NCBI GenBank assembly: GCA_013112545.1
Contig: JABFGJ010000003.1
Span: 62,001-126,000, forward strand
Direction: 5' to 3'
Origin: Bacteroidota bacterium
GTDB taxonomy: Bacteria; Bacteroidota; Bacteroidia; Flavobacteriales_E; Vicingaceae
Length of the DNA stretch: 64,000 bases
How positions within the stretch are numbered: position 1 is the stretch's first letter; the number at the start of each line of letters is the position of its first letter. Made by a program: the position numbers and the translations under genes. Below the pieces are notes generated by a model. It made no database searches, was not told where the DNA came from, and saw only the letters and a program-made list of their open reading frames with translations. Of this stretch, positions 1,842-4,947 are shown in pieces.

Positions 1842-2252
1842 TTGGGAAACTTAATTATTCGGAATAAAAAAAAGCTCGTTTAATTATGGACTTTTATTGG
1901 ACTATTGCTCTTCATTGTAGGTGTAAGTTCAGTTTTATTAGAAGAGATGAATTTAGTTTTTAGTTTAAGTTCAGGATTAGTGTATTTTTTTGCTGGATTA
2001 TACTATTGGTTCGTACCATATCTCAAAGTAATAGATGGAGTATTGTGGGTAAATACATATCCGTTTAGGAAAGTGAATTTAAAAGATGTAGTTCGAATAA
2101 AGCATTTTTTAGATGAGGTAATAATAGTTTGCAATGGAAAAGAGACTCGAATTTCAAATTATCAAATGTCAAAAGAAGATCAAGTCCGATTTAATAATTT
2201 TGTTAATGAGTTAAATAAAAAAACATCAGAAAATCAATTTTATAAAAAGTAA
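1842..2252 (+). pseudogene. small two-helix membrane protein, paralogue 1, with in-frame stop
   Basis: First of three related genes. From TTG 1842 the frame aligns without gaps to the start of the neighbour at 2254, but codon 14 is TAA (1881-1883) where the neighbour has Trp. Downstream the frame is open to 2252: two hydrophobic segments, then a polar C-terminal domain with FRKVNLKDVVRIKHFLDE and NGKETRIS, close to the third paralogue's FRKIKISEIEKVKQFLDE and NGKETIIS. The fold may be a membrane-anchored PH-like domain (inference). A shortened product could start at TTG 1905, inside the first hydrophobic segment, which would be poor for insertion. Its stop codon is one base before the next ATG, as in an operon. 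It could be a recent nonsense mutation or a sequencing error. Confidence 0.6.
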
Positions 2253-2253
2253 G

Positions 2254-2412
2254 ATGGAAGATTACATTTTCAAATACAAACAAAGAAGAATTTGGTTTAA
2301 CCTTATTCTAGGTCTAGTTTGGCTTGTTTTTGGAATACTATCCTTGAGTTTTAATGACAATGATTTTCTACCTGGCTGGCAATTAATTTTTGGTTTAGTA
2401 TTCCAAGAATAA
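2254..2412 (+). pseudogene. small membrane protein, paralogue 2, 5' part cut by an inversion
   Basis: ATG 2254 begins a 52-codon frame: a basic N-terminus (KYKQRRIWFN) and one clear membrane helix, then a premature stop at 2410-2412. The rest of the protein is missing on this strand but is encoded on the minus strand at 2542-2824. Joining codons up to 2387 with the reverse complement of 2824-2542 gives one uninterrupted frame of 138 residues with the two-helix plus polar-domain layout of its neighbours. The start follows the previous gene by one base, so it was probably an operon member. As the sequence stands, only a truncated peptide can be made. Confidence 0.65.
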
Positions 2413-2539
2413 AACTAAGTTCCCCTTCTTCAAAATATAAATTAGCACCTAATCCAATCATAAACAAGATAGCGCCTAAAATTAAAAGTGCATATCGCTG
2501 TCGATTTTTAAAATAAATACGAAACTCTTGTTTTGACAT
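2351..2539 (-). pseudogene. small membrane protein, paralogue 3, 5' part, inverted
   Basis: ATG 2539 on the minus strand begins a 62-codon frame with a basic N-terminus (FKNRQRY) and one hydrophobic helix, ending in residues unrelated to the family (the last few run through plus-strand sequence beyond 2388). It is the N-terminal half of a gene whose C-terminal half lies on the plus strand at 2825-3062. Joining minus 2539-2388 to plus 2825-3062 gives an open frame of 129 residues. It starts two bases after the stop of the paralogue-2 fragment at 2542, again a tight operon spacing. Confidence 0.65.
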
Positions 2540-2832
2540 AGCTATACTTTTGTTTGTTCTAAAATTAAGCTTTCTTGAATCTCATCCATCAAGGATTTGA
2601 ATTTTACTTTAGATTCAAATTCCATTCCGTCCAATGCAACAGTAAGCTTTTTGGCATTTGTAAACATCGTGTATTCACCTGCAAATAGCTTAACCCTGTT
2701 CACTTCTGCTAAGTTTATGGTTTTACCAAAATGATAATAGCTTTTTAATTGATTGTTTTTTAATTCAATGTATTGATATTTTTTTTGATAAATATACAGT
2801 CCTATGAATAGGGTTGGCTTATACATTAATTG
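2380..2832. repeat. 8-bp inverted repeat flanking a 437-bp inverted segment
   Basis: CAATTAAT at 2380-2387 and its reverse complement ATTAATTG at 2825-2832 flank 2388-2824. Reversing the enclosed segment joins plus 2387 to the complement of 2824 and the complement of 2388 to 2825. It restores two tandem open frames, of 417 bp (2254 onward) and 390 bp (ending 3062), both exact multiples of three, separated by two bases. The repeat is short and AT-rich, and no recombinase gene lies within this window's neighbourhood, so this may be a one-off inversion and not a programmed switch. Confidence 0.75.
2542..2826 (-). pseudogene. small membrane protein, paralogue 2, 3' part, inverted
   Basis: The frame encodes the second hydrophobic segment (FIGLYIYQKKYQYIEL) and the polar C-terminal domain (INLAEVNRVKLFAGEYTMF) of the family. 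The ATG at 2826 is created by the right-hand repeat; no membrane-targeting N-terminus precedes it. Its natural continuation upstream is the plus-strand fragment at 2254-2387. I therefore read it as the displaced second half of paralogue 2 and not as an independent 94-residue gene, although expression from ATG 2826 cannot be excluded. Confidence 0.6.
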
Positions 2833-3062
2833 GTATTTACAGATGTTATCAACCTTATGTCAAAGTAAAGGAAGGTTTTCTTTGGTTTAGCAGCAATCCA
2901 TTTCGTAAAATTAAAATTTCAGAAATAGAAAAAGTGAAACAGTTTTTGGATGAGACGACTTTGTTTGTGAATGGGAAAGAAACTATAATTAGTGACTTGA
3001 TGATGAGCGAAACGGATAAAAAAAGATTTAGTGAATTTATAAATGGAATTAATCCCATTTAA
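2825..3062 (+). pseudogene. small membrane protein, paralogue 3, 3' part
   Basis: The frame is open to TAA 3060-3062 and encodes a segment matching the family's second half: IYRCYQPYVKVKEGFLWFSS, FRKIKISEIEKVKQFLDE, NGKETIIS and a polar C-terminal helix. It has no ATG of its own upstream of the conserved part. Its natural 5' half is on the minus strand at 2539-2388. It is very similar to the C-terminal half of paralogue 1 at 1842-2252, which shows what the intact gene should look like. Confidence 0.65.
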
Positions 3063-3105: not shown

Positions 3106-3294
3106 TTACTTTTTTAGCTTAGACCAAAAAATCATAATAGCTAAAGTCAATCCTAAAGCTATTGTAATATATGATTTTTGATTTTCTTCAAATACTAAAT
3201 TGTCAAAATTTAGGGCAGTTATGCCAAAAGCTAATAAAAATACACTGAAGAAAGTTAGTAGTTTAATTCTATTTTCTGGTTTCATATTAAGCAT
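3106..3294 (-). CDS. small two-helix membrane protein
   Basis: A 62-residue protein with a short basic start (MKPENRIK), a helix around residues 11-30, a polar loop (NLVFEENQ) and a second helix around residues 42-58, ending in LKK. The ATG at 3294 overlaps the stop codon of the ferritin gene and a second ATG lies three codons later, so it is probably translated from the ferritin transcript. I recognise no family. The two helices recall the N-terminal half of the damaged family at 1842-3062, but I see no convincing sequence match. Confidence 0.55.
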   Translation of the reverse strand: MLNMKPENRIKLLTFFSVFLLAFGITALNFDNLVFEENQKSYITIALGLTLAIMIFWSKLKK

Positions 3295-3787
3295 GTGTTT
3301 TACTAGCGGCTTCTAAATCTTTATCAAACATATATAAACTAGACTTTTCACTTCCTATCATTTCTAATTTATCTAAAATAGAACGGGCTAATTGTTCCTC
3401 TTCCATTTGTTCAGAAATATACCACTGCATGAAATTGTTAGTTGTATGGTCATTTTCTTTTAAACAAGCGGTAATTATATCATTAATCGATGCTGTTACC
3501 AAAATCTCATGTTCTAAAATACTTTTAAAAACTGCTTGTAAAGTTTCAAACTCTTTGGTGGGTTTTGGTAAAGCAGGAACCGTTGCATGTCCGCCACGTT
3601 CATTGATAAATTTTACCAATTTTAACATATGCATTCTTTCTTCATCAGAATGAGCATATAAAAAGCTTGCTGCACCACTAAATCCATTGACATCAGCCCA
3701 GCATGCCATAGCTAAATATAATTGAGATGAAGAGGCTTCTTTTTCTATTTGACTTTGTAATTTACTTTCGATTGTTTTAGATAGCAT
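3287..3787 (-). CDS. ftnA: non-haem ferritin
   Basis: Cytoplasmic iron-storage protein of 166 residues, the usual length of bacterial ferritin. It oxidises Fe(II) and stores the mineral in a 24-subunit shell. The ferroxidase ligands known from E. coli FtnA are all in place: Glu17 (with Tyr24), Glu50, His53, Glu94, Glu126-Gln127 and Glu130. There is no haem-binding Met in a bacterioferritin context. The start at ATG 3787 leaves 22 bases to a TATCTTTG -7 box at 3809-3816. The small membrane protein at 3106-3294 overlaps its end and may be co-transcribed. Confidence 0.93.
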   Translation of the reverse strand: MLSKTIESKLQSQIEKEASSSQLYLAMACWADVNGFSGAASFLYAHSDEERMHMLKLVKFINERGGHATVPALPKPTKEFETLQAVFKSILEHEILVTASINDIITACLKENDHTTNNFMQWYISEQMEEEQLARSILDKLEMIGSEKSSLYMFDKDLEAASKTHA

Positions 3788-3831: not shown

Positions 3832-4947
3832 TTAATTTGGTATTTGTAAAAGATATTTTAATTTTTCTATTTCTTTTCCATTAACGATTAAAGATAAAGC
3901 TTGCTCACCAGCGTAATATTTTCGTGTAGAAATAGGTATAATAGAATGATTTTTTTGAATAGTGATTTTTTCTAATGGCTTTAAAGCTTTTTCAGAGATT
4001 TTAAAAACTTTCCTGTTCTGTTTACCATTAGATTTTAAAAAATAACATCCATATTCCAACCTAACAAGTATATTGGCTTTACTCAGGTTTTTAAGGGTGA
4101 ATTTAAATGACAAATGATCGCCCATTTTTATTTCTTTGCTAGCTAAATTAATTGAGCTAATTTCAAGTGCATTGTTATTAGAGTAACCAAACAATTCCAT
4201 GGCTTGTTGATTGCCTTTTTTTAAGAGTGTCCGGCAAGCAAGTTTAATAATCCAATTGGTATTATCTGAAAAATTCTGCCATTTCTTGGCAATTTTTAAG
4301 ACCAATTCTGGGTGGTCTTTTGAAATGTCATTCAAATTATTGGCAACACTTTTACGAACATACAAAGAGTCATCGGACTTTAAATTCTCTAAAATCGGAA
4401 GGATTTCACTCGGATCTTCAATTAGTTCTTTTAATGCCATTCCCCAAGGTAATTTAGGTCTGCAACCTTCAGAAGCAAATCTTCTTATGTTTTCGTGTGG
4501 ATGAGTTGACCATTTTGTCATGCGACCCATTACTTTTTTTCTATCTTGAATTATAAAAGGTCGTATTGCAAATTCACAAGAAATGTGCTTGGTGATTTGC
4601 TCTATGGCATCTAGCGATATATCGACATGATTTTGGCCAAAGACTTCAATATAATCTGGTAAAAAGAAATATTCATAGCGTTCTACTTTGTGATTTAATT
4701 GAGCCAATTTATTTAAGATTTTAATTAATAAATCGCTTGCCTTTTTAAAATCAGCTGGAAGTTGCTTGTGGATATTAAGAGTTAGACTCCTTGTTCTTTC
4801 TTTTAATTCTAATTGGTCCCAGCTTTTATTAAAAATGGAACTTTCCATTTTCTCTATATTGAAATTGGGGTCATAGGATTTCCAAACTTGAAAAAATGAT
4901 TGGTAAAACTGTTTGTTTAAACTATTTTTTAATGGTTCAAAACTCAT
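3832..4947 (-). CDS. alkC: AlkC-type DNA glycosylase with C-terminal Ig-like domain
   Basis: DNA alkylation repair protein of 371 residues made of HEAT-like helical repeats. It would remove alkylated bases such as 3-methyladenine without flipping them out. The family signature HENIRRFASEG plus RPKLPW lies at residues 151-168, followed by helical repeats with VRKSVANNLNDISKDHP (about 197-213) and TNWIIKLACRTLLKKG. The last hundred residues, from about 272, are beta-rich (GDHLSFKFTLKNLS) and fit the immunoglobulin-like domain known in one AlkC subgroup. The gene stands alone between ferritin and rpoD, each apparently with its own terminator or promoter. AlkD is less likely given the signature and the extra domain. 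Confidence 0.85.
   Translation of the reverse strand: MSFEPLKNSLNKQFYQSFFQVWKSYDPNFNIEKMESSIFNKSWDQLELKERTRSLTLNIHKQLPADFKKASDLLIKILNKLAQLNHKVERYEYFFLPDYIEVFGQNHVDISLDAIEQITKHISCEFAIRPFIIQDRKKVMGRMTKWSTHPHENIRRFASEGCRPKLPWGMALKELIEDPSEILPILENLKSDDSLYVRKSVANNLNDISKDHPELVLKIAKKWQNFSDNTNWIIKLACRTLLKKGNQQAMELFGYSNNNALEISSINLASKEIKMGDHLSFKFTLKNLSKANILVRLEYGCYFLKSNGKQNRKVFKISEKALKPLEKITIQKNHSIIPISTRKYYAGEQALSLIVNGKEIEKLKYLLQIPN

Follow-up and report, generated by a model that had tools for sequence, protein, structure and literature searches.

The window analysed here is a stretch of 64,000 nucleotides from a Flavobacteriales-type bacterial chromosome, positions 62001-126000 of contig 3 in a 3.27-Mb assembly of 24 contigs. 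Close to its start lies a tandem array of three paralogous genes (Table 1), the first a probable pseudogene and the other two divided into four fragments on alternating strands. The four fragments were described in the first-pass annotation and are borne out in the assembled sequence. Read from their start codons, the fragments encode 52, 62, 94, and 82 amino acids. The same annotation drew attention to an exact 8-bp inverted repeat, CAATTAAT/ATTAATTG, which is indeed present at 2380-2387 and 2825-2832. Reversing the segment between its arms (2388-2824) opens two frames, 2254-2670 (417 bp, 138 aa) and 2673-3062 (390 bp, 129 aa); the first starts one base behind paralogue 1 (ORF 1905-2252), and two bases separate it from the second.

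Table 1. Coordinates of the array, the inverted segment and the candidate repeats in the window
Feature	Position	Strand	Remarks
Paralogue 1, probable pseudogene	1857-2252	+	longest ORF 1905-2252 from TTG, 115 aa
Paralogue 2, 5' part	2254-2403	+	helix 1 and part of helix 2; original orientation
CAATTAAT, left arm of the 8-bp repeat	2380-2387	+	first-pass annotation; probably incidental
TATTC, left arm of the 5-bp inverted repeat	2399-2403	+	best-fitting inversion breakpoint
Inverted segment	2404-2805	-	402 bp between repeat arms; 412 bp including arms
Paralogue 3, 5' part	2404-2539	-	on inverted segment; ATG at 2539
Paralogue 2, 3' part	2542-2805	-	on inverted segment
GAATA, right arm of the 5-bp inverted repeat	2806-2810	+	
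Paralogue 3, 3' part	2806-3062	+	original orientation
ATTAATTG, right arm of the 8-bp repeat	2825-2832	+	first-pass annotation; probably incidental

Predicted products and relatives of the array

The predicted gene products are membrane proteins that combine two helices with a PH-like domain. The structural model of paralogue 1 (pLDDT 75.7, pTM 0.54) places six strands between a long membrane-type helix and a C-terminal helix, and its best matches in the PDB are PH domains, found at weak significance (E-value 0.04). Within the bacterial family, Pfam bPH_4 (PF06713) occurs in distant matches; the PH-domain membrane proteins of this Pfam family share with the predicted products the membrane helices, the PH-like β-sheet and the C-terminal helix. 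Unlike these proteins, the array members and their close homologues match no Pfam or NCBIfam model above cut-off, the Pfam gathering cut-off of bPH_4 included.

Four genomes from a different genus of the family carry five homologues between them, each as an uninverted single ORF of ~128-140 aa; they occupy non-orthologous positions, and the present genome was the sole representative of its genus among those searched. The homologue at locus L008 (G026 contig 5, around 1480-1510) has an open frame with no ATG, GTG or TTG at the expected start; either decay of this copy as well or an unusual start codon could account for this.

The array adjoins a ferritin-type gene and a gene for a 62-aa membrane protein (window 3106-3787). 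This pair recurs in two uncultured Flavobacteriales, the closest relatives at the ferritin locus (L024 and L025), and the array is absent from that locus in both. The relatives found via the ferritin gene are mostly uncultured Flavobacteriales. Queries with the upstream neighbour and with the 371-aa downstream neighbour (window 3832-4947) revealed no syntenic array in relatives, and the family alignment contains no stretch conserved enough for a contig scan. In a relative, the gene homologous to the 371-aa neighbour (G030 contig 1, 28906-30003) bears nine in-frame stops and is either a pseudogene or low-quality sequence.

Position of the inversion breakpoints

The region of 809 bp contains 454 inverted-repeat pairs of at least 5 bp, and only two of them reopen two ORFs of at least 100 aa: the 8-bp pair and a 5-bp pair, TATTC/GAATA. 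Both restored proteins also score strongly against the homologue profile, so that the micro-inversion itself is well supported in the assembled sequence. It had been argued in the first-pass annotation that two junctions working at once are unlikely by chance. Both frames do reopen, but the argument is weaker than claimed because the frames are interdependent: their joint length is always 807 bp, which is divisible by 3, and restoration of one therefore restores the other. The 8-bp repeat is in itself unremarkable, since 19 perfect inverted-repeat pairs in the region reach 8 bp or more, the longest 11 bp, and CAATTAAT is common in the window (17 occurrences versus 11.3 expected, a mild excess, with 17 reached in 7 of 100 shuffles). 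At a random junction in the region, microhomology of at least 5 bp arises in 1.1% of draws; among the 777 distinct junctions that leave both frames open, it is found only at the 5-bp and 8-bp pairs.

For the breakpoint scan, we used a profile of five homologue proteins, drawn from other genomes only (loci L003-L006 and L008), and scored the rejoined protein pair at every in-frame breakpoint pair within 2290-2530 × 2560-3030. Out of 37,600 pairs scored, 1,086 keep both frames open, and the top total, 184.9 bits, belongs to TATTC 2399-2403 / GAATA 2806-2810; the 8-bp repeat reaches 166.0 bits. The top pair places the breakpoints ~20 bp inward of the 8-bp arms. The scan was rerun with 14 profile variants, two of which represent an identical sequence set, leaving 13 distinct ones. 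Of these, 10 place the 5-bp pair at the top, alone or tied, and all 13 score it above the 8-bp repeat; with G026a alone, P1 alone and P1+G026a the 5-bp pair ranks third, second and ninth, respectively, a neighbouring junction being slightly ahead.

The residues encoded across the junctions point in the same direction. Joining at the 5-bp repeat gives ELSFILGIGLAYTLIGIYRCYQPYVKV in paralogue 3 and GWQLIFGLVFIGLYIYQKKYQYI in paralogue 2, and both proteins align without gaps over the junction with paralogue 1 or with intact relatives. A flip at the 8-bp repeat instead introduces MYKPTL into paralogue 2 and LNQKL into paralogue 3, foreign to the GLVYIG-type residues of relatives. The two sites thus imply different intact genes, which would carry GLVFIGLYIY and ILGIGLAYTLIG if the breakpoints lie at the 5-bp repeat, and MYKPTL (in the context GWQLMYKPTL) and ILNQKLIG if they lie at the 8-bp one. 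Inversion at CAATTAAT/ATTAATTG, whether once or repeatedly, would make use of the longer repeat and likewise open both frames; its score is below that of the 5-bp pair by 8 to 22 bits across the full scan and all profile variants, it leaves foreign residues at both junctions, and we consider it unlikely. Judged on sequence, the breakpoints first assigned are very probably wrong and the 8-bp pair is probably incidental. What holds of the original description is an inversion, possibly fixed, that splits two tandem paralogues; what does not hold is a crossover at the 8-bp repeat.

State of the array and reversibility

Paralogue 1 is damaged in its own right. Its homology to the family begins at ~1857 without an ATG, and an in-frame TAA (1881-1883) lies where the first membrane helix begins; judging from its sequence, the gene probably became a pseudogene separately from the inversion, unless it is translated from the TTG at 1905. 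Compared with intact homologues, all three frames are disrupted, those of paralogues 2 and 3 by the inversion. No further copy of the family was found elsewhere in the genome, and the ancestral, uninverted junction sequence is absent from the assembly. Because paralogue 1 looks decayed, paralogues 2 and 3 are split and the genome holds no other copy, the whole family looks disabled, all three copies being probable pseudogenes. Could the four fragments now be functional short genes in their own right, as the start codons on the 52-, 62-, 94-, and 82-aa pieces might suggest? Each piece holds just part of the fold, homologues elsewhere are single ORFs of ~128-140 aa, and two of the pieces begin at chance start codons close to the break, which makes this reading exceedingly improbable.

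Apart from the inversion, the frames of paralogues 2 and 3 are intact. The lack of stops places the event at no more than roughly 6-8% neutral divergence (95%, from stops only and assuming no selection since). Such frames are compatible with a recent fixed event and also with a switch that flips back. The latter possibility, a phase-variable switch in the first-pass annotation, would be a reversible coding inverton driven by a recombinase, which turns the two membrane proteins on and off together and was assembled in its OFF state. As in bacterial invertons, including coding or intragenic ones, a segment between inverted repeats alters the coding state of genes, and five tyrosine-recombinase domain matches in the genome could provide an enzyme that acts in trans from a distance. 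However, invertons are described as flanked by inverted repeats of 10-40 nt that are bound by the invertase (PMC11892184), whereas the repeat here measures 5 bp at the best breakpoint, or 8 bp at the site first annotated, with no further matching arms, and CAATTAAT is a common octamer. Nor does an invertase lie nearby, where the cognate recombinase of an inverton is usually encoded: the search of the genome returned no match to the serine recombinase / resolvase family, and all five tyrosine-recombinase matches are on contigs other than that of the array. Damage to paralogue 1 within the same array also argues against a functional switch. The switch reading is thus unsupported, and we regard it as improbable; the more specific version, in which a tyrosine recombinase of this genome or another enzyme acts at a 5-8 bp repeat to silence both PH-like paralogues, is very improbable. 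In the same genome (G000), two adjoining tyrosine-recombinase-type genes, one of them a weaker match, are located on contig 2 at 267792-269235.

An inverted segment in an assembly may also arise as an artefact, through a misoriented short piece or an amplification chimera, and amplification chimeras also show short microhomology. However, the inversion is clean and two-ended with no base lost, and to produce it, chimeric joins at both ends would have had to prevail in the consensus. Ordinary assemblers are not led astray by a repeat as short as 5 bp, and the assembly, in its 24 contigs, is rated 100% complete with a contamination of 0.04. An artefactual origin is accordingly a poor candidate.

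Proposed mechanism and implications

We propose, as the probable explanation, a one-off conservative inversion of the microhomology type at TATTC/GAATA that has left paralogues 2 and 3 as pseudogenes, alongside paralogue 1, which is probably one as well. The ~402 bp between TATTC 2399-2403 and GAATA 2806-2810 would have been inverted by illegitimate, microhomology-type rejoining of breaks or by a replication template switch. Paralogues 2 and 3 would thereby have been cut within the second membrane-helix region and their halves exchanged, such that neither full-length protein could be made. The breakpoints carry the few bases of inverted microhomology typical of such events, here 5 bp against the 1.1% background given above, and the inversion was probably one-way and irreversible. 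We infer the molecular route, the irreversibility and the loss of function alike.

Short inverted repeats allow the spacer between them to be inverted through template switching (PMC8604942). As in micro-inversions of this kind, the spacer is reversed, no bases are lost and a site-specific recombinase is not needed. However, spacer inversions in yeast coding regions involve spacers only a few bp long between arms of >9 bp (PMC8604942), whereas the present locus combines 5-bp arms with a spacer of ~402 bp; a single local template switch may therefore be less likely than strand breakage and rejoining. Our literature search for bacterial cases of micro-inversion at very short repeats returned nothing closely matching.

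The locus is a clean and well-resolved bacterial case of genes broken by a micro-inversion, ordinary in kind. It also carries a caution for AT-rich DNA, in which the longest inverted repeat nearby is not necessarily the breakpoint; scoring every breakpoint against homologues locates the ends of an inversion better than the longest repeat does. For the organism, the micro-inversion probably explains the lack of any intact copy of a small membrane protein still retained by some relatives.
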